Shown: positions 43,679-60,020 of the stretch, piece after piece
Layout of the letters: each line of letters starts with the position of its first letter
How positions within the stretch are numbered: position 1 is the stretch's first letter
The notes under the pieces: model-generated
Told to the model about the DNA's origin: nothing
The model's database searches: none
What the model saw: the letters and a program-made list of their open reading frames with translations, nothing else
NCBI RefSeq assembly: GCF_034627025.1
Contig: NZ_CP141049.1
Location: 248,001 to 312,000 of the forward strand
Origin: Microvirga lotononidis
GTDB lineage: Bacteria > Pseudomonadota > Alphaproteobacteria > Rhizobiales > Beijerinckiaceae
Reading direction: 5' to 3'
Length of the DNA: 64,000 nt
Position numbers and translations under genes: made by a program

Positions 43679-44560
43679 ATGAGCGCTGCAGTTGCTGTCC
43701 CTGGATCCAGCCAAGGGCCGACGGCCCGGGCCCTCGGTCGTTTTGTCACCAACCGGCTCGCGTTGGCGGGACTTGTCGTCCTCGCTGCCATTCTCATTGC
43801 GATCCTGACCTATCCACTCTGGTGGACGTATACGCCCAACCAGATTGACCTGCGGGCCCTCAATAAGGGTCCCAGCGCCAGCCACTGGTTTGGAACCGAT
43901 GGTGTCGGGCGCGACGTCTTCGCGCGTCTGATGCAGGGTGGCCGTATCTCGCTCCTCGTCGCCGTCACATCGGTCGCGGTTTCGCTCGTGATCGGCTTCC
44001 TTGTGGGTGCCGTGTCGGCCTTCAGCGGCGGCTTAGCAGACGGGGCCATCATGCGTCTCGTTGATCTCGCCATGACGCTCCCGCCGGTGATCCTGCTGCT
44101 TGTGCTCGCATCTATCGTGGGGACGGGCATCGTGCCTACAATCGCCGTGATCTCGCTGCTCTCCTGGCCCGTGCTGTCCCGCATGGTCCGCGCCCGCCTT
44201 CTCGAGCTGCGTGAGCGTGACTTCGTTGTCGCCGCACGTGGCATGGGCGCCGGGATGGGTCACCTGCTGTTCCGACACGGGCTCCCAAACTGCATCGACA
44301 TCCTAGTCGTCTACGCAACCCTGCAGATCGCCAATGCCATCCTGCTCGAGGCTGGCCTCTCCTTCCTCGGACTCGGGATTGCTCCCCCGGAGGCCAGTTG
44401 GGGCAACATGCTGAACGCAGCGCGCTCAACCAGCGTGCTCGAGCAGTATGTCTGGCAATGGATGTTTCCCGGCGCAGCGCTCGTCATCACGGTGCTGGCG
44501 ATCAACTTCGTTGGCGACGGCCTGCGCGACGCCTTCGATCCCCGTTCCGATCTTCAATAA
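43679..44560 (+). CDS. ABC permease, DppC/OppC type
   Basis: The 293-residue partner permease has a soluble N-terminus, then [20 protein letters not shown] as helix 1. [20 protein letters not shown] is the conserved DppC signature, and the EAA loop is [20 protein letters not shown]. The C-terminus [17 protein letters not shown] is standard. It completes the membrane part of the island's importer. Confidence 0.94.
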
Positions 44561-44580
44561 CCAAGCTACAAAGGTTCACT

Positions 44581-45498
44581 ATGACCAATCTCCGCGGCGT
44601 CGTTCCTCCCGTTGTCACTCCTCTGACCGAGAACTTTGAGGTCGACTATCCCTCCTATACCAAGGTTCTGGAACATCTCATTGCAGGCGGCGTGCATGGC
44701 CTCTTCGTGCTCGGCTCGACGAGTGAGGTGATCTTCCACGATGAGGCAACCCGGCGCCAGATCCTCGAACACACCGTGAAGGTGGTGAACGGACGCCTGC
44801 CGGTTTTGGCCGGTGTTATCGATCCGACGACCGACCGGGTCATCGGCCACGCCAGAGCGGCGCAGTCGATCGGGGTCGACGCCGTGGTGGTGACGGCTCC
44901 CTTCTATACCCGCACGAGCCAGCCGGAGGTCGCTGACCATTTCCGCTACGTGCGTGAAGCGATTGATCTACCCGTCATCGCCTACGACATTCCGGTCTGT
45001 GTTCACACCAAGCTGGACCGCAAGACAACGGTGACCCTAGCCCGCGAGGGCACCATTGCCGGGCTCAAGGACTCGAGTGGCGACGACGGCAACTTCCGGT
45101 TCTGCCTGCTAGATCTCATGGACAAGCCCGACGTCTTCCTCATGACGGGTTCTGAGATCGTCGTCGACAATGCCCTCCAGATGGGAGCGCATGGTGTGGT
45201 CCCGGGCCTCGCGAATGTGGACCCGCACGGCTATGTGCGGCTGTGGAACCACGCTCAGGTGGGGAATTGGGAAGCAGCGCGCAAGGAGCAGGAGCGCCTG
45301 TGCCGCCTTTTTGAGATGGTCTGGGTCTCGCTCCCCCGCACCAGTGCAGGTTCAGCAGGGGTCGGCGCTTTCAAGACGGCGATGCGCGCCCTCGGGGTCA
45401 TTGCCACTAACACGATGGCCCGGCCTCAGCGCTCCCTCAATGCCGAGGAAGCCGCACAGGTGGAAGAAATCGTCCGTGCCGCTGGACTCGCGAGCTGA
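44581..45498 (+). CDS. nanA: DHDPS/NanA-family aldolase (putative sialic acid lyase)
   Basis: The 305-residue class I aldolase has [31 protein letters not shown], the catalytic tyrosine 135 in IAYDIPV and the Schiff-base lysine 163 in [10 protein letters not shown]. It would split N-acetylneuraminate into ManNAc and pyruvate, feeding NanEK. DHDPS-type proteins share this motif set, but the island context favours the lyase role. It lies between the permease and ATPase genes, an unusual position within a transporter operon. Confidence 0.87.
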
Positions 45499-45502
45499 AG
45501 CC

Positions 45503-46513
45503 ATGCATGTCGCCCCGATCCTGGATATCTCTGGCCTCAAGACGGTGTTTCGCATTGGCGGCCGTCCGGTCGCCGCCGTACAGGATCTGAATCTGACGAT
45601 TGCGCCAGGCGAAACCCTGGCGCTCGTCGGCGAGTCTGGATCGGGCAAGTCCGTCACCAGCCTGTCGGTCATGGGGCTTCTCCCCAGAGGCGTGGGGCAG
45701 GTGGCCGAGGGCACAATCCTGTTTCGTGGCAAGACGGGGCTGACGCAGGACCTCACAAAACTCGATGCCGAGGGTCTGCGGCAGATCCGAGGCAATGACA
45801 TCGCCATGGTCTTCCAGGAGCCCATGACGAGCCTCAACCCGGTCTATACAATCGGCGAGCAGATCGCCGAGCCCATGCGCATCCATCTCGGTCGCAGCCA
45901 CAAGGATGCGGCGGCTGCCGCGATCAAACTCCTGGCCGATGTCGGCATCCCCGATCCCGAGCGGCGTGCCAGACAGTATCCGCACGAACTCTCAGGCGGC
46001 ATGCGCCAGCGTGCCACCATCGCGATGGCGCTTGCCTGTGATCCGGTCCTTCTGATTGCCGATGAGCCGACCACCGCGCTCGACGTGACGATCCAAGCCC
46101 AGATCCTCGACCTCCTGCAGAAGCTGCAGGCGGAGCGGGGCATGGGGATCCTGTTCGTCACCCATAACTTGGGCGTGGTGGCGGAGATCGCTGACCGGGT
46201 GGCGGTGATGTATGCCGGCCGGATCGTCGAGACGGGCACCGTTGCCGAGGTATTTGCACATCCACGCCATCCCTACACAATAGGGCTGATGCGGTCGATC
46301 CCGAAGCTGGGAGAAGCGACCGCATTGAAGCGGCAAGGCACCCCGCTACCGACGATTGCAGGCTCGGTACCGAGCCTCATCCAGCTTCCGAACGGCTGCT
46401 CGTTCGCCCCACGCTGCCCCTATGCCATCGACGCATGCTGGGCGGACGTTCCACCCTTGTATGATACAGGCACTGGTCAAAGGAGCCGCTGCATCAGATG
46501 GCAGGAGGTCTAA
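45503..46513 (+). CDS. ABC ATPase, DppD/OppD type
   Basis: The 336-residue ATPase has Walker [22 protein letters not shown]-loop [14 protein letters not shown], signature [20 protein letters not shown] and Walker [17 protein letters not shown]. The oligopeptide-ATPase C-terminal region includes [16 protein letters not shown], a cysteine cluster known in this family to bind Fe-S or metal. It pairs with the DppF-type ATPase just downstream. Confidence 0.95.
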
Positions 46514-46515
46514 AC

Positions 46516-47484
46516 ATGCAGGAGCCGCTGCTCTCGGTCAGGGGCCTGACCAAGCATTTCAAGCCAACAGGCTTTTCCCGCGGATCCATCGTTCGCGCGA
46601 TCGAGAACGTCTCCTTTGATGTACCACGCGGAAAGGTCGTCGGCCTCGTAGGCGAGTCAGGCAGCGGAAAAACCACAATCGGGCGGTCTGTACTGCGCTT
46701 GATCGAGCCAACGTCCGGCGAGGTGCGCTTCAATGGGATCGACATTACGAAGCTCTCTGCGGCCCAGCTGCGCCGCCAACGCAAGAGCATGCAGTACATT
46801 TTCCAGGATCCATTCGCGAGCCTGTCGCCGCGCATGACCATCGGGCAAATCCTGACGGAAGGTCTCGAAATCCAGCATGTAGGGGCGCGCCAAGAGCGAA
46901 TGCAACGCGCGAAGGCCGCTCTCGCTGCAGTCGACCTACCGGCCGACGCCTTCGGCCGCTATGCGCATGAATTCTCAGGCGGGCAGCGCCAGCGCATCGG
47001 GATCGCGCGAGCCTTGGCACTCGGACCCCAGCTGATCGTGGCCGACGAACCTGTTTCGGCGCTCGACGTCTCGATCCAGGCTCAGATCGTCAATCTGCTG
47101 CGTGATCTGCAGATCCGCCTCGGATTGACGATGCTGTTCATCTCGCACGACCTGGCGGTCGTCGAATACATCTGTGATACGGTCATCGTTCTCTACCTGG
47201 GGCGCATCATGGAGATTGCGCCGAGCGAGAAGCTCTATGCTGATCCGCGTCATCCCTATACACGGGCTCTGCTCTCGGCGATCCCGTCGCCAGATCCCAC
47301 CAAGGCCCGTACGCGGCAGATTCTGACTGGGGATATCCCCAGCCCCGCCAATCCGCCCTCCGGGTGTGTGTTCCGCACCCGTTGTCCGCACGCTGCTGAG
47401 CAATGTGCGGCGGTGGTGCCTCCACTCGAAGAAGTCTCCCCTGGTCACTTCAAGGCCTGCATCCGACGCGACGTCAGCGGGTGA
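46516..47484 (+). CDS. ABC ATPase, DppF/OppF type
   Basis: The 322-residue second ATPase has Walker [22 protein letters not shown]-loop [15 protein letters not shown], signature [20 protein letters not shown] and Walker [16 protein letters not shown]. The C-terminal cysteine cluster is [15 protein letters not shown]. The start at 46516 follows AGGAGGT by 6 bases; an upstream ATG at 46498 would overlap the DppD-type gene and lacks a better site. Confidence 0.95.
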
Positions 47485-47665
47485 CGGATTGTTGCGTCAG
47501 GTCACGTGGTTCATGGAGGAAATAAAGACAATCCCGAGCTGCGATCCCGCGGCCGTCCCGAGTGCAAGCAGGACTTTTGCAGAGCAGACCCTGCTATTTC
47601 AAGAGTTTCTTCGGGAGAAGACAGTTCACCAGACTTTCACCACAGAAAAACCAGGAGGGAGGCCC

Positions 47666-48832
47666 ATGACATCGAAAGCTCTCACAAGATCGCTGGCCGG
47701 CAGCGCCGTTGCCATCGGTCTTTCCGTAAACGTCGCGACGGCAGGATCTGATTGGCCAGATCTTCCGGTCGGAGTGAAGAACGGGATCTCCGCTCAGATC
47801 GGCGATACAATTTATGTAGGTCTAGGCTCAGCTGGAACAGCCTTCTACTCGCTCGATCTTAAGGATCGTGCAAAGGGTTGGGTCACGCGGTCTGCCTTCC
47901 CAGGGCCTGCCACGAATGGCGCAGCAGTCGCGACCTCGAACGGGCAGATCTTCATCTTCAGCGGCAATGGCAAACCAACCCCGGATGCCAAGTCTCCGAT
48001 CATCTTCGATACCGTCTACAGATATGACCCAGCCGCTGACAAATGGGCCAGCGTTGATTCAAAGACTCCGGTGGGATTATCAGGTGCAAGGGCATTCAGC
48101 ATCCCTGACGGCAGGATCGCCATTGTCGGAGGATACAACAAGGAGCACTTCGACAAATATTTGGCTGACGTGAGTTCTATCGATAAGGATGAGAATCCGC
48201 AGGAATACGGACGTCTGGTTAGCTCTTACATGAGTATGCAACCTAGGGCATATCGATGGAACAACAAATTGCTTGCGTTTGATCCCGTCGATGGTCGTTG
48301 GAGCGAACTTGGCGATAATCCGTTCCTGCCGAACTGTGATTCCGGCCTTGTGCGAACAGGTGAGGGCGCCTTCCTGATCATCAGTGGCGAGATCAAACCC
48401 GGGCTTCGCACCCCTAACACCAAAGCGATCAAGATCACCAGTGACAGTGTCGAATGGGAGCAAGGCCCAGATCTGCCCGCCCCCTCGCCAGAAGTCCTTC
48501 AGGAAGGGATAGCCGGCCCATATGCTGGCGCTGTTGGGACCGACGTGCTTGTGGCCGGCGGCGCGAACTTCGCAGGGGCTCGCGCCCGTGCTGAGGCCGG
48601 CCATTGGTTTGCTCATGACGGTCTTACCAAGTCTTGGCGCAAAGAAATTTACATCTGGAATGGTACAAAGTGGGCCCAGATAGGCCAACTTCCGGTTGGG
48701 CTCGCCTATGGCGCATCGTTCAGTACACCTGACGGCGTGTTGATCGTCGGTGGAGAAGATGAACGAGGTTCTGCTCGACCAGATGCGTTCCTGCTGAAGT
48801 GGGACGGAAAAGCTGTCACGATCGAAGATTAG
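47666..48832 (+). CDS. nanM: Kelch-repeat sialic acid mutarotase (NanM-like)
   Basis: The 388-residue exported protein has a signal peptide ([20 protein letters not shown], cleavage near TAG) followed by a six-bladed Kelch beta-propeller: [20 protein letters not shown], then VPGLGSAG-like [38 protein letters not shown] and ILVVGGEDE-like VLIVGGEDE. NanM in the periplasm speeds anomer interconversion of Neu5Ac, and related forms make or open 2,7-anhydro-Neu5Ac. AGGAGGG precedes the start. It closes the rightward arm, 181 bases after the DppF-type gene. Confidence 0.92.
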
Positions 48833-48890: not shown

Positions 48891-49497
48891 TTAGATCAGC
48901 GTTGAGATAAGGCCAGGTAAGGAAATTGGCATGATAATCTTAAAGAACGCTCCATATCGCGAACAGCCATCAATCATCGCGGATTCCTCAAGCTCCCGTG
49001 GCAGAGAAAGAAAGAAGCTACGCATCAGCCACATGACATATGGAACAAGGAAGGTGCTATAGGCCAGGATAAGCGTGATGTGCTTATCCGTCAGGCCTAG
49101 TTGCCGTGCCACCAGAAACATGGGTACCGCGAGGGCTATGGGCGGAACACCCCGCGACAGGAGAATGAGGACTCCAAAGGTTGCCGCTCCACGAAGCCGG
49201 ATGCGGGCGAGCGCGTAGCCCGCCATCGTCCCGACCACGATCGACAGAAGGCCTGACCCTGCGGCTACGATGAGGGTATTAATCAGGCGCCGCTCAATGT
49301 CGGCTCGCCGGAAGTACTCCACATAAGTGGAGACGGTTGGCGTGAAGAAGAACTTCGGCGGACTGGTAAAGATATCAACCTGCTGCTTGAAGGAGGTCAG
49401 AACCATCCAAAAGACCGGGAACAGGAAGAGCAGGGTTACTGCAACCCCAGGGACGATCCGGATCCGGTGACCGAGTTGTCCAGACGGAAGAGATGAA
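48891..49497 (-). pseudogene. Carbohydrate ABC permease (MalG type), truncated
   Basis: The frame reads VAVTLLFLFPVFWMVLTSFK, the first helix of a MalG/UgpE-type permease, and continues to FFLSLPRELEESAMIDGCSR and FFKIIMPISLPGLISTLI, the EAA loop. A stop then appears where roughly 60 more residues are expected. No good start codon precedes the first helix. The missing partners (MalF, binding protein, ATPase) are not near. It appears to be a stranded fragment of a sugar importer between the two islands. Confidence 0.75.
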
Positions 49498-49739: not shown

Positions 49740-49757
49740 TTTGCACACGTGTGCAAA
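49740..49757. promoter_or_regulatory. LacI-type operator 1
   Basis: TTTGCACACGTGTGCAAA is a perfect 18-base palindrome with a central CG, the usual form of LacI/GalR-family sites. It resembles a second site at 51626 at 14 of 18 positions. It precedes the phosphatase genes at 50068 and 50706, and a LacI regulator is encoded in the same island. Confidence 0.75.
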
Positions 49758-50067
49758 ATTATCCGTGCTTCACCCATTTGATGGGAAGCCCAGCGAACTG
49801 ACCGCCCATCCGGCTAGACCGGATGAGAGCACCCGAATGTCGGACGCGATGGGGAAACGCTTTTTGGCCGACCTCCGGTCATGGGAAGGATGTAACGGAA
49901 TGACGAGCCCGGCGGCACCAGCGCGATCTTCATCGAGCGGCTTCCCGGTAGGGGCATTTACCGTCCGCGGTCGAGACCAGTCCCAGCTGAGACGGAACAC
50001 CTGGGGTCTTTCAGCTGGTTCGCTTCCCCTGGCTCGCACCCCTAAAGTCCGAGGATCACAATCTCCC
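49758..50067. other. Leader region before the HCX5R phosphatase
   Basis: About 310 bases follow the LacI-type palindrome before the phosphatase start. The frame is open but unlike any known protein. I treat it as a leader of unknown content; a small gene cannot be excluded. Confidence 0.35.
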
Positions 50068-50691
50068 ATGACGAGTCCATTTAAGTTCAAGCGCCCGTCG
50101 ATGAGCCTCATCGTGGATGAGCTGCCTCCCTTCGGAATCAAACTGTTCGTCGGAGGTGCCGCGGCCGCAGCGGACAAGTCCCTCCTCGAGCGCAACGATA
50201 TCGCTATTGTGCTCAATTGCGCCGTCAACCTCGATATCAATTATGCCGCCGGGGTTGAAGCTTCTGACGTTGCCTCCCCGCACGGTCCTATCCGGAACTA
50301 CAAGCTGGGCCTCATTGATGATGCGGGCAATCCAGACACGATGCTGCTCGCTGGTTACTACCTGCTCGACGGCGCCCTGCATCAGCAGCTGCCCGACCGC
50401 TACACTTACCCGCATCGTCGACGCGGTAATGTCCTGCTGCACTGCCGCGGCGGGCGGAGCAGGTCTGTGATCCTGGCCGCCTTATACATTCACATTCAGA
50501 TGCCTGACCAATTCCCCACTCTCGACGCAGCGATCGACCATCTCCGAGTCGCCCGCGAGCTACACCCGAGCGAGTGGATGGAAACGCCAAAGCCGATGCT
50601 GATCGAGGCTGCCCGGCACGCGGCAACATGGGTCCGCCGGATCGAGCAGGAGAAGCATCCAGTGCCGAAGCTCGCGATTTCCCACAAATAA
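50068..50691 (+). CDS. Dual-specificity-type phosphatase (HCX5R)
   Basis: The 207-residue protein has the cysteine phosphatase loop VLLHCRGGRSRSVILAALYI (C-R-G-G-R-S-R, matching CX5R) and an upstream acid region in RNYKLGLIDDAGNPD. It fits the dual-specificity/PTP-like fold, with no signal peptide. Members act on phosphoproteins, but PTP-like enzymes also dephosphorylate inositol phosphates and sugar phosphates. It lies 14 bases before an inositol-monophosphatase-family gene, which favours a small-molecule substrate. The start at 50068 fits the conserved VDELPPFGIKLFVGGA opening. Confidence 0.78.
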   Translation: MTSPFKFKRPSMSLIVDELPPFGIKLFVGGAAAAADKSLLERNDIAIVLNCAVNLDINYAAGVEASDVASPHGPIRNYKLGLIDDAGNPDTMLLAGYYLLDGALHQQLPDRYTYPHRRRGNVLLHCRGGRSRSVILAALYIHIQMPDQFPTLDAAIDHLRVARELHPSEWMETPKPMLIEAARHAATWVRRIEQEKHPVPKLAISHK

Positions 50692-50705
50692 GCAGGAAAT
50701 TCATT

Positions 50706-51563
50706 ATGTTCGTCAAGTCCGCTGGCCAGGTTTTCGACCTAGCCTCCCACGCCGTACCCGGCGAGATTGGTCTCAGGCTGCCGGTCGCGTGCGCGGCAGC
50801 GCGTGAGGCAGGCTCCCTCGCGCGGCGCCGCTTCAATGGACGGCCAGGTCTCTCCAGCATCAATCTCAAGGGGCACCAGGACTATCTCTCAGCGGTCGAT
50901 GCCGAGGTTGAAGCCCTGTTGCGTTTGAGGCTGCTCGAGAGCTTTCCCGAAGACTCATTCTTTGGCGAAGAGGGAGGCGGCTCCTTCGACAACAATGTTT
51001 GGGTCGTCGATCCCGTCGACGGGACAGCCAATTTCGTGCGTGGCATTTCGCAGTTCTGCATTTCGCTCGCCTATGTTCGAGGCGGTCAGACGCAAATCGG
51101 CATCATCTACGATCCAATGGCTGACGAGATGTTCGTCGCCGAGCGGGGCAGAGGGGCGACCCTCAACGGGGAGCTGATCCGGGTCAGCGGGCTGGAGGAA
51201 ATCGGTTCGTCAACCATCGAAGCGGGATGGTCGAACCGGTTGCCGTTCAGCCAGTACGTGGACTTGATTGGCCGCCTGCTCGGCGATGGGGCGGGCATCC
51301 GCCGTGGCGGATCGGGCGCTCTAGCTCTGGCCTATGTATCGGCCGGGCGGCTGGACGGCTATTGCGAACTGCACATGAATTCGTGGGACGCACTGGCAGG
51401 ATTGCTTCTTATCGAGGAGGCCGGCGGCTGGGTGAACGACTTCCTGGCCAATGACGGCCTACGCAACGGAAATGGCGTGCTCGGCTGCACGCCGGGACTT
51501 CGAGAGCGCTTAGTTCGCCTGACCGGCGTTGTCTCATCAAGCGGACCTCCACCAAGACTCTAA
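50706..51563 (+). CDS. Inositol-monophosphatase-family phosphatase (first)
   Basis: The 285-residue Mg-dependent phosphatase has the metal site EDSFFGEEGG, the signature WVVDPVDGTANFVRG and the C-terminal MNSWDALAGLLLIEEAGG. Family substrates include inositol phosphates, histidinol phosphate, fructose-1,6-bisphosphate and PAP. It forms a pair with the HCX5R phosphatase gene. A second family member lies at 56361 in the same island, so two positions or substrates may be served. Confidence 0.92.
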   Translation: MFVKSAGQVFDLASHAVPGEIGLRLPVACAAAREAGSLARRRFNGRPGLSSINLKGHQDYLSAVDAEVEALLRLRLLESFPEDSFFGEEGGGSFDNNVWVVDPVDGTANFVRGISQFCISLAYVRGGQTQIGIIYDPMADEMFVAERGRGATLNGELIRVSGLEEIGSSTIEAGWSNRLPFSQYVDLIGRLLGDGAGIRRGGSGALALAYVSAGRLDGYCELHMNSWDALAGLLLIEEAGGWVNDFLANDGLRNGNGVLGCTPGLRERLVRLTGVVSSSGPPPRL

Positions 51564-52018
51564 AACAACTTCAGTGACAGAAGAACAGAGCATGGTCTGA
51601 ATAAGAAGTCACAGTCGTCATCCCTGTTGCACAGGTGTGCATCGCGTGGTTTAATACAAATGTCCTTGGTTTAGTTGGAGCTTCTGTTCAACCGCAGACG
51701 ATCAAGACACTCATTCGAACGCAATCATCGCTGCCGGCTCGCGGCGATGAAGCAAAAGACCGGGACTGGATCGCGTGAGCGAACCGGACAAACCTGGCAG
51801 CTGCCCATCTGCAGAAATGTACAAGTCGCGGCCATCACGGGAGGAAGATGTGAGGCATCGCAATGCTATCGGGTCAAACGATCCGATTCCACGGTCGAGT
51901 GCAGCGCCAACCTGCTGGGCCGGGTGTCACCATTCCAGTAATGTCTCCCAAGACGGAAGCGAGGTCACGGGAGCACTGCAATCACTGGAGTTTGCCCTAA
52001 GCTCGATGGTAGCGCGAC
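51564..52018. other. Intergenic region with LacI-type site, no gene seen
   Basis: This gap holds the operator candidate at 51626-51643 and then about 375 bases with no convincing gene before the permease. Short open frames here lack family features or good starts. Confidence 0.45.
51626..51643. promoter_or_regulatory. LacI-type operator 2
   Basis: GTTGCACAGGTGTGCATC matches the perfect palindrome at 49740 in 14 of 18 positions, with the core TTGCACA and GTGTGCA intact. It precedes the ABC importer, second phosphatase and phosphoesterase genes, so both blocks could be controlled together by the island's LacI protein. Confidence 0.65.
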
Positions 52019-53878
52019 ATGCGACCGCTTAATTCAACGGCAAGAGATGCCTCTTTTGTGAGTGGCAGAAAAACCCCGTCGCAGCCCACGGCCTACCAGC
52101 GTTTACGCTACAGGCTCAAAATCTCCCTGAGGGAGCCGACGACCGTCATCGGCATCCTGACTGCGTTGCTGTTCGCCTATCTGGTTGTCGTGCCGATCGG
52201 TTCCATGTTGACTGATGCTGTCCATGTACAGTTCGGTGACGAGAGACGGGTCGGCAGGCACTTCGGCGAGCTCACCCTCTATTATCTCAACAGAGTCTTT
52301 CTGGCTCCTATCTCGCCTACGCTGTTCTGGACTCCGTTGCTGAATACCCTTTCCGTGTCGCTCGGCGCAATCGTGCTCTCGTTCCTGGTCGGAACACCGC
52401 TGGCATGGCTTATCAGCCGAACCGACATGCTTGGGCGAAAGTGGTTCGCTACAGCGCTCATCGTCCCCTACATGTTGCCGGCGTGGACCTTCGCGCTCGC
52501 CTGGACCACCTTGTTCAAGAACCGCACGGTCGGCGGGCAGCCGGGATGGATCGAGGCACTGGGTTTCGCCCCACCCAATTGGCTGGCTTACGGGCAGTTT
52601 CCAATCACCGTTGTCCTCGCGCTGCACTATACGCCGTTTATCATCCTGCTGTTCGGCAGCGCCCTGCGGCGCTTTGACTCCCAGCTTGAGGACTCGGCCC
52701 GCATCCTCGGCGCCCGGCAATATCAGGTCGCGTGGCGGATCATCCTGCCGCTCATGCGGCCAGCGCTGCTCTCCGCCATGGTGCTCATCTTCGCAAAGTG
52801 CCTCGGCGAGTTCGGCGTACCTTACGTTCTCGGCCTGCCGGTAAAGTTCGAGGTGCTCTCGACGTCACTCTTCCGGAGCATTTCATCGCGGCAGAGCGGG
52901 GTCGCGGCGGTTCTCGCGGGAGCCATCATGTTGATCGGCATCATCACGCTGCTGATCGACGCCAAGCTCGTCAAGGAAGCTCGCCGGTTCGTCACTGTCG
53001 GCTCCAAGGGTACGATGAATCGCCTGACACACCTCGGCCGGCTCCGGGTCGTCGCGACGCTGTTTGCCGCAACCGTTTTCATACTGAGCGTCGGACTGCC
53101 GCTCCTGACCCTATTCCTCTCCACGATCATGGAAGTGCCAGGCCGCTTCGCGTTCGACAATTTTACCCTGGACTACTGGATTGGACGGGATCTGGACAGT
53201 GTCGCTCTTCGGACCGGGATCCTCCTGAGCTCGGATCTCTGGAGAGCCGCCTGGAATACGCTGTGGATCGTCGGCTTGGCCTCGATTGCGTCCGGGCTTC
53301 TTGGACTCCTTGTAGGATACGTGACGGTGCGCACATCGTTCCGGCCGCTTGCGACTTTCCTGCGTCAGGTCACATTCCTTCCCTACCTCGTTCCCGGCAT
53401 CGCCTTCGCGACGGCGTATCTGTCGCTGTTCGCGGTACAGCGTGGTCCAATTCCTGCTCTGTACGGAACGTCCGCAATCCTCATGCTGGCCCTTATGGCC
53501 GACCAGATGCCCTATGCATCTCGCGCCGGCGTCTCGGCCATGATGCAGCTTGGGAGGGATCCGGAGGAAGCCGCACAGGTCGCAGGCGCAGGATGGTTTA
53601 GGCGCATGCTAACGGTGGTCATTCCTATCCAGAAGGGATCGCTGGTCACCGGAATCCTGCTGCCTTTCATCTCGGGGATTAAGGGCCTCAGCCTCTTTGT
53701 GGTTCTCGCGGTGCCGAGCACCGACGTTCTGACGACCTTCTCAATGCGCCTTGTGGACTATCACTACACGCAGGCCGCAAACGCCGTGGTGCTGATTGTC
53801 GCGGGCATCGCCTATACGGGCACGCTCGCGGCGCAAAAACTGACCAGGACCAACCTCGCAGAAGGACTCGGAGGCTGA
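52019..53878 (+). CDS. Fused ABC permease, FbpB/AfuB type
   Basis: The 619-residue permease is a tandem fusion of two six-helix halves. Each half has an EAA loop: EDSARILGARQYQVAWRIIL in the first and EEAAQVAGAGWFRRMLTVVI in the second. This arrangement is typical of ferric (FbpB, SfuB) and sugar-phosphate (AfuB) importers. Its stop overlaps the ATPase start (TGATG). The N-terminus before helix 1 (about 45 residues) is basic and cytoplasmic. No strong ribosome site is visible. Confidence 0.92.
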   Translation: MRPLNSTARDASFVSGRKTPSQPTAYQRLRYRLKISLREPTTVIGILTALLFAYLVVVPIGSMLTDAVHVQFGDERRVGRHFGELTLYYLNRVFLAPISPTLFWTPLLNTLSVSLGAIVLSFLVGTPLAWLISRTDMLGRKWFATALIVPYMLPAWTFALAWTTLFKNRTVGGQPGWIEALGFAPPNWLAYGQFPITVVLALHYTPFIILLFGSALRRFDSQLEDSARILGARQYQVAWRIILPLMRPALLSAMVLIFAKCLGEFGVPYVLGLPVKFEVLSTSLFRSISSRQSGVAAVLAGAIMLIGIITLLIDAKLVKEARRFVTVGSKGTMNRLTHLGRLRVVATLFAATVFILSVGLPLLTLFLSTIMEVPGRFAFDNFTLDYWIGRDLDSVALRTGILLSSDLWRAAWNTLWIVGLASIASGLLGLLVGYVTVRTSFRPLATFLRQVTFLPYLVPGIAFATAYLSLFAVQRGPIPALYGTSAILMLALMADQMPYASRAGVSAMMQLGRDPEEAAQVAGAGWFRRMLTVVIPIQKGSLVTGILLPFISGIKGLSLFVVLAVPSTDVLTTFSMRLVDYHYTQAANAVVLIVAGIAYTGTLAAQKLTRTNLAEGLGG

Positions 53879-55014
53879 TGCCGACAATTACCCTGCGCGA
53901 CGCGCAAAAAAGCTATGGAAGCAACTCGGCGAACGCCGTCTCGAATCTCGATCTTGAGATCAGCGACGGGGCGTTCATGTGCCTGCTCGGGCCCTCGGGC
54001 TGCGGAAAGACGACGACCCTGCGCATGATTGCCGGTCTCGAAAACCTCTCAGACGGAGAGATTCGGATTGGCGATCGCATCGTGGACTCCGTCCGCCAGG
54101 GCGTCTTTGTACCGCCCGAGAAGCGGGAGATGGGGCTCGTCTTTCAGAGCTACGCGCTCTGGCCGCATCTGACCATTGAGCACAACACGGATTTCGGACT
54201 GCGCCTGCGCAAGGTGCCAAAGGCCGAGCGGGAGGCGCAGGTCGAGCGAGTGATGCGTGCCCTCGACATCGAGAAATACCGTCACCGGTATCCATCGCAA
54301 TTATCTGGCGGACAGCAGCAGCGCGTGGCTCTCGCCCGGATGCTCGCCGTCAATCCCGGCATCCTGCTGCTCGACGAGCCCTTGTCGAACCTCGACGCAA
54401 GGCTGCGGCTGGAAATGCGAGCGGAGCTGAAGCGGATTCATCGAGAGTTCAACACCACAATTGTGTTCGTGACGCATGACCAGTGGGAAGCCATGACGCT
54501 TGCGACCAAGATCGCCGTGATGAACCAGGGCACGCTCCAGCAACTCGGCACGCCGAACGAGATTTACGACCGGCCTGCGAACCGCTTTGTGGCGGAGTTC
54601 GTCGGTGGTCCTCCGATCAACATCTTGAATATCGAAGACACAGACGGCTCCGGACTGGCCGGAGCGGCCCGCCGGTATCTGGCCCGGTGGCACTCGGGCC
54701 CAGAGAGCATCGGTTCCATCGGGATCCGGCCCGAAGCACTCCGCCTAGCCTCGTCACCGGACGAGGTGCCCGAGGGAAGCTTCAGCGGCCTTGTCGATGT
54801 GACCGGAATCCTACCGACCGGCGGCAGCTGGATCCTCGAACTTGCCGGGGAGGGCGATCCACTTTTCATGACGATGCACGAGGCGCCGGAGGTCGATGTG
54901 GGAACGAAGGTGCATTTCTGGACGAAGCCAGGTGCCTTGCATGTCTTCGACACCAAGGGACAACGCGTGGCCGCCTTCGACAGCAACGTCCGCCGCCGCT
55001 TTCCGACGCAATAG
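53878..55014 (+). CDS. ABC ATPase, FbpC/PotA type
   Basis: The 378-residue ATPase has Walker A LGPSGCGKTTTLRMIAGLEN, the signature YPSQLSGGQQQRVALARMLA and Walker B ILLLDEPLSNLDARLRLEMR. A C-terminal TOBE-type domain (IGIRPEALRLASSPDEVPEG) follows. The subfamily serves iron, polyamine, sulfate and sugar-phosphate importers. It is translationally coupled to the permease gene. Confidence 0.95.
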   Translation: MPTITLRDAQKSYGSNSANAVSNLDLEISDGAFMCLLGPSGCGKTTTLRMIAGLENLSDGEIRIGDRIVDSVRQGVFVPPEKREMGLVFQSYALWPHLTIEHNTDFGLRLRKVPKAEREAQVERVMRALDIEKYRHRYPSQLSGGQQQRVALARMLAVNPGILLLDEPLSNLDARLRLEMRAELKRIHREFNTTIVFVTHDQWEAMTLATKIAVMNQGTLQQLGTPNEIYDRPANRFVAEFVGGPPINILNIEDTDGSGLAGAARRYLARWHSGPESIGSIGIRPEALRLASSPDEVPEGSFSGLVDVTGILPTGGSWILELAGEGDPLFMTMHEAPEVDVGTKVHFWTKPGALHVFDTKGQRVAAFDSNVRRRFPTQ

Positions 55015-55037
55015 GAACTGAGGCGTCAGACCACTGG

Positions 55038-55069
55038 TGCGGTGCGAGCGAGGATGGCTCTGCACCGCA
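55038..55069 (+). promoter_or_regulatory. Hairpin between ATPase and binding-protein genes
   Basis: TGCGGTGC pairs with GCACCGCA, and inner GAGC pairs with GCTC, around a 7-base loop. It lies 24 bases after the ATPase stop and may tune the relative levels of the ATPase and the binding protein downstream. Confidence 0.55.
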
Positions 55070-55108
55070 TCATCCCAGCAAAAGCGAACGACAAAAGGGA
55101 GAGAAACG

Positions 55109-56260
55109 ATGATGAAGTTCCATTCCGAGGTCGAGTGCCGGAGGCAAACGAGCGCGGCATTTCCCACTGCTGGTCTCGCGGCGCTTCTGCTGCTGGCGTC
55201 GATCCCTACGGCGGTTGCCCAGGACACCGGCCTCGAGGCGCTCATCGCAGCGGCCAAGAAAGAAAGTCCGATCAACGTCTACGATAGCACCGGGAAGATC
55301 GTCGAGATCGCCACGGGGTTCAGCAAGAAATATGGTCTGAAGGCCACTGGCATGAAAGTCTCGGCCAATAGTCAGCTTGAGATGATCGTCCGGGAAGGGC
55401 GAGCCGGCAATGTCCAGGGCGACGTGGTCCTGATCACCGACACGCCCGCCGCTCTTGCGCAGTTGATGCCGCAGGGCTTCGTGGAGAGCTGGGTGCCACC
55501 GGAGATGGCGAATAAGATCCCTGCTCAGTTCCAGAAGCCGCTCGCCATTTCGACGAACGCCAATGTGTGGGCCTACAACACGGAAGTTTACGACAAGTGT
55601 CCGGTCACGAACCTTTGGGAGATGACAGAACCCAAGTGGAAGGGGAAGGTCGCGTTCATCGATCCGCTCACCAAGGGCAGCTACACGGACTGGTTCAACC
55701 AGATGGCCCAACATGGGGATGCCGAGGTGGCGGCCGCCTATAAGGCGTATTTTGGCAAGGATTTGACGACTAAGGAGGCGAGCGCCACCGCGGCGTGGCT
55801 CAAGGCTTTTGCGGCAAACGCGCCGCTCGTCACGGATGGGGACGATCCCATTTCCGAGGCCATCGGTGCGCCCGGACAGAAGGCCCCGTTCTTCGGCCTC
55901 GTGAGTTCGGCCAAGTTCCGGGATAATGTCGACAAGGGATATAAGCTTGGTCTGTGCACAGACCTCAAGCCCTGGGTCGGCTGGACCTACACCAAGCTCG
56001 GACTGATCGCACAGAAGACCAAGAGCCCCAATGCCGCAAAGCTGTTCATTCACTATCTCCTCACACCCGAGGGAATTGCCCCGCAGATGCAGGACGGCAA
56101 GATGCCGACCAATACCGACATCAAACTCCCGGAGGACGAACCGTCCAGGGTCGGCGATGTCGCGGATCGGCTCTTCCAATACGATGCATCCACTGGCCTT
56201 AGCGATTGGGATAGCCGTCAGGACTGGCAGGACTTTTGGCAGGTAAACTACAAAAAGTAA
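55109..56260 (+). CDS. Periplasmic binding protein, ferric/AfuA type
   Basis: The 383-residue protein has a signal peptide (TAGLAALLLLASIPTAVAQD) and the family 1 ferric-type fold (SPINVYDSTGKIVEIATGFS, GDVVLITDTPAALAQL, NAAKLFIHYLLTPEGIA). FbpA-type iron binders carry two adjacent tyrosines in the C-terminal lobe; no such pair exists anywhere here. With four phosphatase-type genes in the island, a phosphorylated sugar or cyclitol is a better guess, as shown for AfuA. The binding gene follows the ATPase gene, unlike the usual binding-protein-first order. Confidence 0.88.
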   Translation: MMKFHSEVECRRQTSAAFPTAGLAALLLLASIPTAVAQDTGLEALIAAAKKESPINVYDSTGKIVEIATGFSKKYGLKATGMKVSANSQLEMIVREGRAGNVQGDVVLITDTPAALAQLMPQGFVESWVPPEMANKIPAQFQKPLAISTNANVWAYNTEVYDKCPVTNLWEMTEPKWKGKVAFIDPLTKGSYTDWFNQMAQHGDAEVAAAYKAYFGKDLTTKEASATAAWLKAFAANAPLVTDGDDPISEAIGAPGQKAPFFGLVSSAKFRDNVDKGYKLGLCTDLKPWVGWTYTKLGLIAQKTKSPNAAKLFIHYLLTPEGIAPQMQDGKMPTNTDIKLPEDEPSRVGDVADRLFQYDASTGLSDWDSRQDWQDFWQVNYKK

Positions 56261-56285
56261 GTCGTTCAGCGCCGGTGAGGGCGCG

Positions 56286-56312
56286 GCCGGACAGGCTCGT
56301 GGGCTCTCCGGC
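56286..56312 (+). other. Small hairpin before the second phosphatase gene
   Basis: GCCGGA pairs with TCCGGC around a 15-base loop that has GGCTC elements able to pair partly. It is 49 bases upstream of the second inositol-phosphatase gene. Its effect is not clear; the following bases are not T-rich. Confidence 0.35.
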
Positions 56313-56360
56313 GGCTTCTTGTGCCGGGATCGGCGCTCCACTTTCCATCACGGTGTCCGT

Positions 56361-57230
56361 ATGACAGTCTCAAGGGAATCGTCCCGCCTCCTCAGTGTCG
56401 CCCAGCGGGCCGCGCTGGAAGTCCGCGATCCGTTGCGTGAAGCTTTCCGCTCGACCATTGCGGTCGACTACAAGGTCGATCTTCATGACGTGGTGACAGA
56501 GCACGACAAGCGCTCGGAAGAAGCAATCACTGCATTCATCATGCGCGAAGTTCCGGATTCCGTCCTGCTCGGCGAGGAAGGTGGCAGCGTCGGTAGCGGC
56601 TCTATTCAATGGTATGTCGATCCAATCGACGGCACCTCCAATTTCGCACGCGGACTTGCCTTTTGGTGTGTATCCATTGCGGCCGTCGTCGAGGGTGAAA
56701 TCGCGGCGGGCGTCGTCTACGATCCGATTTCCGACAACCTGTTCACGGCTGATCTTGACGGCGCTTATCTCAACGGTCGCCGCATCGTCTCGCAAGCGGT
56801 GCCACACGAGCAGCACGCGACACTCATCACCGGATACCCCATGACCCGCGACTTTCGCCTCGACGGGAAGCGGCAGTCTCTCGACGACATTGGCCTCCTG
56901 ATCGAGACGTTCTCGACCGTCAGGCGCCCCGGCAGCGCGGCGCTCAGTATCGCTCATGTAGCGGCCGGATGGGTGGATGCGGCGGCAGGCTTCGGAGTCA
57001 ATCCCTGGGACGTCACGGCTGCGATCCTGATCCTCCGACAGGCGCGCGGAACCTATCTCCCGCTCACGCTCGGAAAGGTTGATGAGGCCGCGAAGGATTA
57101 TGCCTGCCCAGGTTATGTGGCTATTGGCGAGGGCGGGAACTACCCGACACTGACCGGCATCGCAAAAAGAATTTCGGAAAGGCGGCGGACACTTTCATCT
57201 GGCCCGCGCGTATCGGCCGCCAAGGCATGA
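56361..57230 (+). CDS. Inositol-monophosphatase-family phosphatase (second)
   Basis: The 289-residue enzyme has DSVLLGEEGGSVG, WYVDPIDGTSNFARG and the C-terminal GFGVNPWDVTAAILILRQAR, all the metal and substrate sites of the family. It differs strongly from the first copy at 50706 and so is not a recent duplication. It is in the transporter operon, directly after the binding protein, which suggests it acts on the imported phosphorylated compound. The start is the ATG after TCCGT; the ribosome site is weak. Confidence 0.92.
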   Translation: MTVSRESSRLLSVAQRAALEVRDPLREAFRSTIAVDYKVDLHDVVTEHDKRSEEAITAFIMREVPDSVLLGEEGGSVGSGSIQWYVDPIDGTSNFARGLAFWCVSIAAVVEGEIAAGVVYDPISDNLFTADLDGAYLNGRRIVSQAVPHEQHATLITGYPMTRDFRLDGKRQSLDDIGLLIETFSTVRRPGSAALSIAHVAAGWVDAAAGFGVNPWDVTAAILILRQARGTYLPLTLGKVDEAAKDYACPGYVAIGEGGNYPTLTGIAKRISERRRTLSSGPRVSAAKA

Positions 57231-57246
57231 AGGACCCGACCCTCCT

Positions 57247-59037
57247 GTGACGTTTATTTCAAGCCACACTGCGATGCCGCCGAAGATCGCGATCATCGCC
57301 GATCCGCATTTCCATGATACCACCTTCCAGCCCCCCGGCGTGCGGGAGGATTTCGCGTCGGTCCGCACCTTGGCGGACACGGTCGCATCGACGCGCGTGT
57401 TCAATGAGAGCGGCCATACCCTTCGCGCCGTACTCGACGATGTGGCGGCGCGACGTATTCGGCTTGTGGTCATTGTCGGAGACCTCCTGGATGACGGTCA
57501 GGTCTTCAACCGTACGGCAGGGATGTCTCTGCTGCGGGAATACACGAAACGCTATGGCATGCGGTTCTTCGCGACACCGGGCAACCACGACCTGTTCGGA
57601 CTTGTCGGGCGGCATATGGGCAAACGCTTCCTCGATGCAGACGGAGCGCATGTCCTAGTCACGAGCGATAAGGACCACCCGTGTGAAGGCTCCGTCAGTC
57701 GCATCGTGGCGCAGGCAGCCTTCTGCGACGGCTATGCGTCTGCGCTTCCGGACATGGCGGAGCTCGGTTACTTCCGGCACGAAGCTGACATATTGTGGGA
57801 AAGTCCCTTCGGTACCTCAGACGCTCTCGAGACCAGACATTATGCGGTGCGCTCCGTTGACGGTCTGACCGAGACGCGCATGATCGATGCCTCCTATCTG
57901 GTTGAGCCTAGCGAGGGATTATGGATCCTTTCCCTGGACGCGAATGTCTATAAACCGCTCGATGATGAGAGAGCGGACTTTGTTGATAGAAGCGAGGCCG
58001 GCTGGAACGCAGTGCTGGAGGACAAGCCCTTCCTGCTATCCTGGGTGAGAGATGTAGCGCTCCGCGCCAAGACCCTGAACAAGCGCCTCCTGGTCTTCTC
58101 GCATTATCCCGTTATCGGCCCTCTGAACGCCACGCTTGAGGACGAAGTCCGGCTGTTTGGTGAAACAACGTTTTCCCGTAGAATGCCGGCTCCAGCCGTA
58201 GCTGAGGCCGTCCAGGACGCTGGGATCAGGGTACATTTCAGTGGCCATTGGCACGTCAACGATACGGCAGTTTCCCGCAGCGACCAAGCCTTTCTGATCA
58301 ATGTCGCGGTGCCTTCACTAACAGCCTTCCCGGCGGCCTATAAGATCGCTGCGTTCGAACGCGAGGAAATGTCCATCACGACAATCCCCTTGCGCGACGC
58401 GCCTGGTTTTGATGCGGCCTTCCGAGCCTATGCGATCGAGTCCGCCCACACGGGCATGGATGTGGGGGATATCCTCCGAGCACCCACATATCCAGATTTC
58501 CTGAACAGTCACTTGGCCCACCTGGTTCGTCGCCGCTACCTGCCGCGGGAATGGCGAGAGGATTTCGCCTCTGCTGTATCTCACTTCACGATCAGGGACC
58601 TCTTCCGGCTTGCGGAGACGGAAGGCGATTTACCAGTGGCGCACCTGGCGACTGCGTCGCGTGGGTCGCCCAGGCCGATTGGGGACGCTGTCGTGATGTC
58701 TTCTTTAGAGCCTGAGCCTGGAGACATTCATTCTCTCCCGTTTTTCGAGTTGGTGGTCGACTGGTATCGCCTGCGCAAGGGAAAAGAACTGGCACTCGAA
58801 CATATCCCGAGGGAGAGGCTTGCGGTCTACAGAGCACTGGTGTCGCGCTACGCGGCCCGGTCATGGGAGAGCGGGAGCCTTCAATCCGACCTGGCTGCTT
58901 TCATGAGCATGCTCGGACAGTATCTTGCGAGCCCGCCTTCCAAGGATTTCGCGATTGATCTCACGACAGGCGAAATCAGGGATGCTAAGCCTTCCTACTT
59001 CGGCCGAACAGACTTGCGCCAGACCGGAAGAGGCTGA
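57247..59037 (+). CDS. Calcineurin-like metallophosphoesterase
   Basis: The product (596 residues from GTG at 57247, or 587 from ATG at 57274) has the dimetal motifs in order: IIADPHFHD, VVIVGDLLDDGQ, ATPGNHDLFG, VFSHYPVIG and HFSGHWHVND. The first 340 residues form the phosphoesterase domain; the remaining 250 are helical and not familiar to me. It lacks a signal peptide, so it acts inside the cell. The GTG start has AAGGA upstream and is slightly favoured. Its 3' end overlaps the convergent LacI gene by 43 bases. Confidence 0.88.
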   Translation: MTFISSHTAMPPKIAIIADPHFHDTTFQPPGVREDFASVRTLADTVASTRVFNESGHTLRAVLDDVAARRIRLVVIVGDLLDDGQVFNRTAGMSLLREYTKRYGMRFFATPGNHDLFGLVGRHMGKRFLDADGAHVLVTSDKDHPCEGSVSRIVAQAAFCDGYASALPDMAELGYFRHEADILWESPFGTSDALETRHYAVRSVDGLTETRMIDASYLVEPSEGLWILSLDANVYKPLDDERADFVDRSEAGWNAVLEDKPFLLSWVRDVALRAKTLNKRLLVFSHYPVIGPLNATLEDEVRLFGETTFSRRMPAPAVAEAVQDAGIRVHFSGHWHVNDTAVSRSDQAFLINVAVPSLTAFPAAYKIAAFEREEMSITTIPLRDAPGFDAAFRAYAIESAHTGMDVGDILRAPTYPDFLNSHLAHLVRRRYLPREWREDFASAVSHFTIRDLFRLAETEGDLPVAHLATASRGSPRPIGDAVVMSSLEPEPGDIHSLPFFELVVDWYRLRKGKELALEHIPRERLAVYRALVSRYAARSWESGSLQSDLAAFMSMLGQYLASPPSKDFAIDLTTGEIRDAKPSYFGRTDLRQTGRG

Positions 59038-60020
59038 AAGCGAACTGGCTCGCCATCTTCCAGCAAGGTGGGCGTTTCATCAAGATGCTGGACGATGTGG
59101 TCGGCGATCTGATCAATCGGCTGCCGGAATGTCGTGAGGTCGTAGGAGGCCCACCCAGCCTGCTCGATATCATCGAACCCAACGACACAGAAGTCTTCCG
59201 GAATGGATAGCCCGAATTCGTGCCGTGCGACGTCCATGAACCCGAAAGCTAAGAGGTCTGTGACGCAGAATGCCCCATCGGGGGCGTCGGAACGGCTAAG
59301 CAGAAGCCTCGCAGCCTCAGAGCCCGAGGTATAAGCGGTAGGCCCATATTGCAGTATCGTGATGTCGACGCCTGCCTCTGCGGCGGCAATCTGGAAGTTC
59401 TTCGCGCGGTTCACGATGCTGGGTGTCCCCACCTGCGAGGAGACGACGGCGATCCTCTGACATCCGGCTCGTCGGAGCATATGAAAGGCTTCCCTTGCGG
59501 GACCGGCGCTATCAACCACAATGTTCGCCGACCCACTGAGGTGATCGTCACGGTTGATTAGTATAACATTCTGGCCATTGTTGATGCAGGTGTGGATGAG
59601 GGAGGCGCTCGGAGCTCCCGAGAAGACGACAGTCGCATCGGCTCTGTAATTGAGGGATTTGTGTAGCGCACCCGCAACGCTGTCGCTTTCCCCGGAGGTA
59701 TTGACGACCATGGCGACTTTGTTGATCTCCTGCAGCCGCCTGGTCATCGTCTCGAGCATCCGAGCTTGGAACGGGGTGTTGAGATCGGCAGAGATAAGGC
59801 AGACAATATCACTACGTTCATGGATAAGACCGCGGGCCAAGTGGTTGACGTGGTAGCCGAGCGTCTCCGCTGCCTGTATGACCTTCTTCCGTGTGGTCTC
59901 CGATACGCTGGCGCCCGCCGTGAAGGTGCGGGAAACTGCTGAGCGCGAAACACCTGCAAGCTCCGCCACACGTTGGGCGTTCACGAAAGTCTTATTCGGC
60001 TTGATGTCGGACACTGCCAT
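58995..60020 (-). CDS. LacI/GalR-family regulator of the phosphatase island
   Basis: The 341-residue protein has the N-terminal HTH (VAELAGVSRSAVSRTFTAGA) with the hinge helix YHVNHLARGL. The periplasmic-binding-type domain follows (DIVCLISADLNTPFQARMLE; FVVGFDDIEQAGWASYDLTT-like CVVGFDDIEQAG). It should bind a sugar-like effector. Two palindromes of LacI type lie at 49740 and 51626, but none is visible just before this gene. It is convergent with the phosphoesterase gene. Confidence 0.93.
   Translation of the reverse strand: MAVSDIKPNKTFVNAQRVAELAGVSRSAVSRTFTAGASVSETTRKKVIQAAETLGYHVNHLARGLIHERSDIVCLISADLNTPFQARMLETMTRRLQEINKVAMVVNTSGESDSVAGALHKSLNYRADATVVFSGAPSASLIHTCINNGQNVILINRDDHLSGSANIVVDSAGPAREAFHMLRRAGCQRIAVVSSQVGTPSIVNRAKNFQIAAAEAGVDITILQYGPTAYTSGSEAARLLLSRSDAPDGAFCVTDLLAFGFMDVARHEFGLSIPEDFCVVGFDDIEQAGWASYDLTTFRQPIDQIADHIVQHLDETPTLLEDGEPVRFQPLPVWRKSVRPK

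Follow-up and report, generated by a model that had tools for sequence, protein, structure and literature searches.

Among the described transport systems closest to the locus studied here, AfuABC of Actinobacillus imports hexose and heptose phosphates, with His205, Asp206 and Glu229 of AfuA binding the sugar (PMC4546632), and the P5PA system of Actinobacillus imports active vitamin B6 (PMC8427247). For inositol itself, IbpA-IatA-IatP is the myo-inositol importer, an RpiR-type IolR is found in Caulobacter, and a Sinorhizobium meliloti SMb20712 mutant is reported to be unable to grow on inositol (PMC2597717). In this study, we analyzed a 64,000-nucleotide stretch of DNA from Microvirga lotononidis (hereafter the window; bases 248001-312000 of a 1.18-Mb contig, C2, in the 7.3-Mb genome of this strain) and found at 49.7-60.0 kb a cluster that, judging from sequence comparison, very probably encodes a LacI-controlled uptake-and-dephosphorylation system, whose ligand we infer to be phytate-derived inositol phosphates. 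Phytate is the main phosphorus store of seeds, and together with its partial breakdown products it forms a large organic phosphorus pool in soil and seeds; bacterial phytases are well studied. No bacterial importer of inositol phosphates is known to us, and neither such an importer nor this gene set was found in the literature searched, most subscription journals and bioRxiv preprints lying outside its reach.

Comparison with these systems revealed both likeness and difference. Sequence identity to AfuABC is low (20%), and His205/Asp206/Glu229 of AfuA are not evidently present in the window binding protein. The importer of the window is also accompanied by LacI control and by phosphatases of the cytoplasm, to which some relatives add phytases. 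The ligand of P5PA differs from the one proposed here, and no phosphatase set of that system is known to us. The 2-aminoethylphosphonate importers (PhnSTUV and PhnT2-PhnU2) supplied the best NCBIfam match of the window permease (TIGR03262, PhnU2) and the second-best match of the ATPase (TIGR03265, PhnT2), but the equivalog cut-offs were not reached in either case (122.7 of 593 and 328 of 458 bits, respectively). Moreover, in Vibrio sp. HDW18 (L058 13691-19023) a separate cluster of a 2-aminoethylphosphonate importer with phnW/phnR directly adjoins the inositol-phosphate-type cluster and is distinct from it. IbpA-IatA-IatP and the iol genes likewise represent inositol use in Alphaproteobacteria, but that importer is another one and serves free inositol, whereas the window system would feed the same Iol pathway from phosphorylated inositol. 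S. meliloti also has SMb20362-SMb20365, an inositol-phosphate phosphatase with ferric-type ATP-binding cassette (ABC) genes, listed among PhaR-dependent genes in PMC12542648; these are possibly a further importer of phosphorylated compounds.

Gene content and conservation of the cluster

A preliminary description of this DNA had placed a ferric-type importer, an HCX5R phosphatase, two inositol-monophosphatase-family enzymes (IMPases), a phosphoesterase and a LacI regulator in one group beginning at 49740. Open reading frame translations together with Pfam and NCBIfam profiles recovered all of these genes as eight intact frames in that place. Position 49740 itself did not hold as the start, the first element being an operator at 49741-49756 and the first gene, encoding a dual-specificity phosphatase (DSP), beginning at 50083. 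The features are as follows:

49741..49756, no strand: LacI operator 1, perfect palindrome TTGCACACGTGTGCAA with 0 mismatches, about 330 bp 5' of DSP, before the phosphatase pair
50083..50691, + strand: DSP, dual-specificity/PTP-like phosphatase, HCX5R loop HCRGGRSR, no signal peptide apparent
50703..51563, + strand: IMPase-1, inositol-monophosphatase family (Pfam Inositol_P, E 8.6e-52)
51627..51642, no strand: LacI operator 2, TTGCACAGGTGTGCAT, 5' of the permease, 2 mismatches
52019..53878, + strand: fused ABC permease of PhnU2/ferric type, with two BPD_transp_1 stretches (best NCBIfam TIGR03262 PhnU2, far under cut-off)
53878..55014, + strand: ABC ATPase with TOBE_2 domain (Pfam/NCBIfam)
55109..56260, + strand: periplasmic solute-binding protein, no adjacent tyrosines
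56361..57230, + strand: IMPase-2, inositol-monophosphatase family (Pfam Inositol_P, E 3.6e-46)
57274..59037, + strand: calcineurin-like metallophosphoesterase (Pfam Metallophos, E 2.3e-11; nearest PDB sequence 2xmo, E 9.3e-7)
58995..60020, - strand: LacI-family regulator, tail to tail with the phosphoesterase (Pfam/NCBIfam)

By eye, IMPase-1 contains EEGG, DPVDGT and WD, and the metallophosphoesterase contains DxH, GDxxD, GNHD and GHxH, which we take to be their catalytic motifs; the motifs expected for the DSP and for IMPase-2 were likewise seen. The Cys and Arg of the HCX5R loop are kept in all 25 aligned DSP sequences; its His is present in the window protein, yet in only 7 of the 25 (Asn in 17, Ser in 1). 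None of the four phosphatases has an evident N-terminal signal peptide when the translations are read by eye, and they are therefore expected to act in the cytoplasm. According to Pfam, an IMPase and a DSP are fused into one protein in Klebsiella (L056 10102-11538) and Erwinia (L057 10107-11690), and apparently also in Celerinatantimonas (L052 11131-12558), which hints that both act on one substrate.

To describe the distribution of the system, one genome per species was scanned for relatives of the binding protein, which yielded 51 loci; the fetched stretches, all from other genomes and at most about 21 kb long, were examined by tblastn for the presence of each gene. The ATPase, binding protein, DSP and LacI genes occurred together in all 51 loci, so that their grouping is not due to chance; scattering in relatives, which would have spoken against the preliminary description, was not seen. 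The permease was present in 50 loci, the remaining one running off the end of its fetched stretch, and IMPase-1, the metallophosphoesterase and IMPase-2 were found in 39, 36 and 30 loci, respectively. Some frames are broken (for example in L053). Most loci belong to Rhizobiales and Rhodobacterales, with others in Marinomonas and Celerinatantimonas and plasmid copies in Klebsiella, Erwinia and Vibrio; the S. meliloti ortholog lies on pSymB near 176 kb. Among named organisms, Microvirga has the binding proteins most similar to that of the window (79-89% identity). In broad samples the importer was rare, occurring in 3 of 398 genomes of a phylum sample (the window genome included) and in 5 of 390 and 2 of 394 genomes of two orders reached through genomes G158 and G398. 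No Klebsiella version was detected in Escherichia coli genomes at megablast sensitivity.

The number of binding-protein matches per locus varied (one in 15, two in 17 and three in 19 of the 51), mostly in tandem; in two Microvirga loci one of the matches belongs to a second importer. IMPase-2 was present in all 27 loci whose binding protein is at least 60% identical to that of the window and in 3 of the 24 others, a pattern suggesting that a binding protein and the phosphatase belonging to it move as a unit. In Shinella (L030, L038 and L050), an extra unit of fused permease (about 27% identical), ATPase and IMPase lies directly upstream of the main cluster.

Phytase genes, inositol catabolism and the LacI-type operator

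Phytate-derived inositol phosphates are proposed as the substrate because phytases and iol genes are linked to the importer or carry its operator in relatives, and because the tyrosine pair of ferric binding proteins is absent. The operator, a TTGCACA-NN-TGTGCAA palindrome with two sites in the window, was first spotted by eye; an earlier search across the loci for palindromes with a central CG found no operator. With up to three mismatches, 90 sites were identified in 82 sequences (repeats included, since the sequences partly overlap) and 2 in shuffled sequence. When up to four mismatches were allowed, a site was present in the permease promoter in 42 of 47 cases, in the LacI promoter in 27 of 50 and in the promoter of a sodium/phosphate (Na/Pi) transporter gene in 9 of 27, and at least one of the three carried a site in 45 of the 51 loci; 47 further sites lay in 996,904 bp outside these promoters. 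The Na/Pi transporter gene was present in 27 of the 51 loci, with two members confirmed by Pfam or NCBIfam. Perfect copies of the operator occur only twice in the whole genome of the window strain, at 49741 and upstream of a paralogous importer on the largest contig, C1. Operator-like palindromes at the presumed target promoters are conserved alongside the LacI-family regulator, which would act at these sites. A fourth candidate site in the genome (C2:709296, 2 mismatches) was set aside as a chance match beside what we read as transposase-like genes.

Of 63 loci scanned, 9 have a phytase near the importer, and three types are represented: beta-propeller phytase (PF02333) in L015, L018, L026, L048, L049 and L079, histidine-acid phytase in L052 and L056, and a MINPP-type enzyme in L058. 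The preliminary description had suggested an inositol phosphate as substrate, and the finding of three kinds of phytase next to the importer, or with its operator, lends support to that idea; nothing specific was found in favor of its other suggestions, a glycerophosphoinositol-type compound or a phosphodiester. The genomes in which a beta-propeller gene adjoins the importer are those of two Devosia, Yoonia, Donghicola, G321 and Wenxinia; in all but Wenxinia a site lies within the shared promoter region or next to it. An operator was located in or beside the region between a divergent phytase unit and the permease in L015, L026, L048, L049, L058 and L079. Four of these six match the window-derived consensus with at most three mismatches, and those of L015 and L048 were recognized by a position matrix only (Devosia Root635, at least four mismatches; Donghicola, matrix score 14.1). 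In Wenxinia, a partial phytase-like frame (254 aa) begins 10 bp after the Na/Pi gene, and no site there scores at least 11. In Yoonia (L120 4343-5005), Donghicola (L121 4814-5368) and G321 (L079 7613-8176), the operator and the beta-propeller phytase are separated by a gene for a secreted-looking protein of about 190-221 aa; the Yoonia protein had no Pfam or NCBIfam match at the thresholds applied.

On the Klebsiella plasmid (L056), a KdgM-type porin and a histidine-acid phosphatase whose nearest PDB sequence is the 3-phytase 2wnh (E 8.5e-82) precede the permease; in Celerinatantimonas, a KdgM porin and a 52% identical phosphatase follow the LacI gene; and in Vibrio (L058), a porin and a MINPP-type phosphatase (nearest PDB 6rxd, 'histidine acid phosphatase', E 5.1e-70, followed by MINPP 7zgf) diverge from the permease with an operator between them. 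Altogether, a porin gene (Porin_4 or KdgM) adjoins the phytase in L052, L056, L058, L103 and L104.

We further searched the genomes for the beta-propeller (PF02333) and histidine-acid families. Eighteen of 58 importer genomes encode such a phytase (7 histidine-acid, 11 beta-propeller), at a distance of no more than 10 kb from the importer in 7 of them; by our estimate, random positions would give this in about 0.5% of cases per 4-Mb genome. No phytase adjoined the importer in Erwinia, Marinomonas, G158, G675, G692, G742, G559 or G915. Among the 11 genomes with a phytase away from the importer, two have strong operators at it, one has weak ones and eight have none scoring at least 11. Both strong cases, the MINPP phytase of G675 (score 22.8, 104 bp upstream, with a porin gene directly downstream of the phytase) and the phytase of Devosia limi (21.1 and 20.3), lie on a different contig from the importer and were fetched after the matrix was made; in shuffled sequence, 0 of 324,615 positions scored at least 22 and one at least 20. 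The phytase of G915 has weak sites only (11.9 and 11.7). No site scoring at least 11 was found near the Rhizobium histidine-acid phosphatases of G1182, G1183 and G1187, the Marinomonas MINPP enzyme of G1175, or the phytases of G158, G692, G742 and G1157.

Inositol catabolism appeared in the same context. In Devosia Root635, iolE, iolD and a fused iolC-aldolase gene, all above NCBIfam cut-offs, are located beside the phytase and the importer. iolE exceeded its cut-off in 45 of 51 importer genomes, that of the window included, and two more had split or short matches.

Weighing of the substrate assignment

The overall fold of the binding protein and the fused permease/ATPase architecture are those of ferric-ion (FbpA/FutA) importers, and relatives are annotated in public records as iron or iron(III) transporters. 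In FbpA/FutA proteins, two adjacent tyrosines bind Fe(III). The earlier remark that the window protein lacks such a pair proved accurate, as no Tyr-Tyr occurs anywhere in it. In a weak alignment, the Tyr-Tyr of the Campylobacter ferric-binding protein (1y4t) falls on Pro260-Phe261; none of 38 aligned binding proteins has a Tyr in columns 260-262, and 3 of the 38 have a Tyr-Tyr elsewhere. Six Lys/Arg residues outside the C-terminal helix are invariant across the 38. Fold searches recovered the fold with no indication of the ligand, and NCBIfam and Pfam profiles pointed to no substrate.

The membership of the importer in the ferric-type family and the fact that phytate binds Fe(III) would fit a ferric importer for Fe(III)-inositol-phosphate complexes, with phytate or its products as iron carrier. 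We consider this very unlikely, given the absence of the Tyr-Tyr pair, a regulator of the LacI rather than an iron-responsive kind, and the dedicated phosphatases. An importer of hexose or other sugar phosphates resembling AfuABC, for which the phytase linkage would reflect general scavenging of phosphorus or carbon, also seems unlikely, if less so. For such a substrate one phosphatase would be enough, and in relatives iol genes and phytases of three types either lie by the importer or carry its operator, although no search was aimed at hexose-phosphate genes. In addition, the window protein has Val290 and Thr295 where AfuA has the two Glu residues of its PCEGTGYE stretch, of which one is probably Glu229; this comes from a weak profile alignment that does not cover positions 205-206.

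On the other hand, the variable number of binding proteins per locus, the several phosphatase families, the metallophosphoesterase and what we label a HAD-like protein in the second system of the same genome might indicate a broad organophosphate importer for phosphorus supply, taking sugar, glycerol, inositol and nucleotide phosphates with binding proteins and phosphatases of overlapping range. Such breadth is improbable in our opinion. It is the phytases that carry the strong operators outside the clusters, within the phytase neighborhoods and the window genome to which this comparison extends, and the Na/Pi transporter in 27 of 51 loci, 9 of the 27 with a promoter operator, would be odd for pure phosphorus scavenging if it exports.

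Several observations nevertheless weigh against inositol phosphates as the substrate. The ligands of PDB neighbors of the binding protein are iron, citrate, sugar phosphates or vitamin B6 phosphate, every NCBIfam row shown for the cluster proteins was under its curated cut-off, and IMPase-family and DSP enzymes take many substrates. Neither searched phytase family is present in the window genome or in 40 of the 58 importer genomes. The linked phytases of L018, L052 and L056 have no operator of their own, and nine of the 11 distant phytases have either no site scoring at least 11 (eight) or weak sites (G915). In G675, the phytase is near a contig end and about 12 kb separate the importer from the end of another contig, so the two may in fact be linked there. 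The operator matrix was built partly from the same loci that it scored, and the 51 loci are not phylogenetically independent. Finally, the background frequencies were not matched for genome size or lineage. In the window's class, 9 of 190 genomes have a beta-propeller phytase and 23 of 190, counting the window genome itself, have iolE; the histidine-acid family occurs in 1 of 244 genomes from the order to which G158 belongs. The iolE comparison is therefore supportive only, and the phytase comparisons likewise.

Second importer, proposed pathway and implications

A paralogous LacI/importer/DSP/IMPase cluster with a perfect operator copy is present on C1 (2568000-2587000; L093 6278-15162). Compared with the window, its LacI regulator is 44%, fused permease 36%, binding protein 30% and ATPase 44% identical, whereas DSP and IMPase-1 are 81% and 80% identical; another IMPase-family gene and then the HAD-like gene follow. 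Thus, the same type of phosphatase pair and the same operator sequence accompany two different importers. Both importers are grouped around a single DSP-IMPase pair in Microvirga subterranea and M. rosea. Adjoining the window cluster, a 171-aa piece of a MalG/GlcU-type permease (48891-49406, - strand), shorter than the family models, is perhaps a gene remnant, and what we label Opp-type ABC importer genes, a DapA-like aldolase frame and a Kelch-like protein (43679-48832) resemble a set for sialic-acid use.

Under the inositol-phosphate reading, a phytase outside the cytoplasm, such as some relatives encode, would cut phytate to lower inositol phosphates; the window strain, without a phytase of the searched families, would use products made by other organisms. 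The binding protein would capture these compounds and the fused permease and ATPase would import them intact, after which the cytoplasmic DSP, two IMPase-family enzymes and metallophosphoesterase might strip the phosphates in turn. The myo-inositol released would enter the Iol pathway, and surplus phosphate may leave through the Na/Pi transporter of those relatives that carry it, if transport runs outward. The LacI-family protein, as a putative repressor responding to a presumed effector, would control these genes through the palindromic operators.

A wider reading is plausible but somewhat doubtful: that Proteobacteria have dedicated import of intact inositol polyphosphates as the intracellular end of phytate breakdown for carbon, with tandem binding proteins each having its own phosphatase and with phosphate exported by a co-regulated Na/Pi transporter. 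The matching it implies, of the window-type binding protein with IMPase-2 and of the second importer with the near-identical DSP and IMPase-1, is likewise tentative.

Our results provide a concrete candidate for an inositol-phosphate importer, with a defined operator, in rhizobia, Devosia, Rhodobacterales and some Gammaproteobacteria, for which S. meliloti could serve as test organism. If the assignment is true, the 'iron(III) transport' annotation across relatives would need correcting, and bacteria may feed on the carbon of phytate while releasing the phosphate. On the wider reading above, phosphate would be freed from phytate by soil and root bacteria as a waste product of their growth on inositol.

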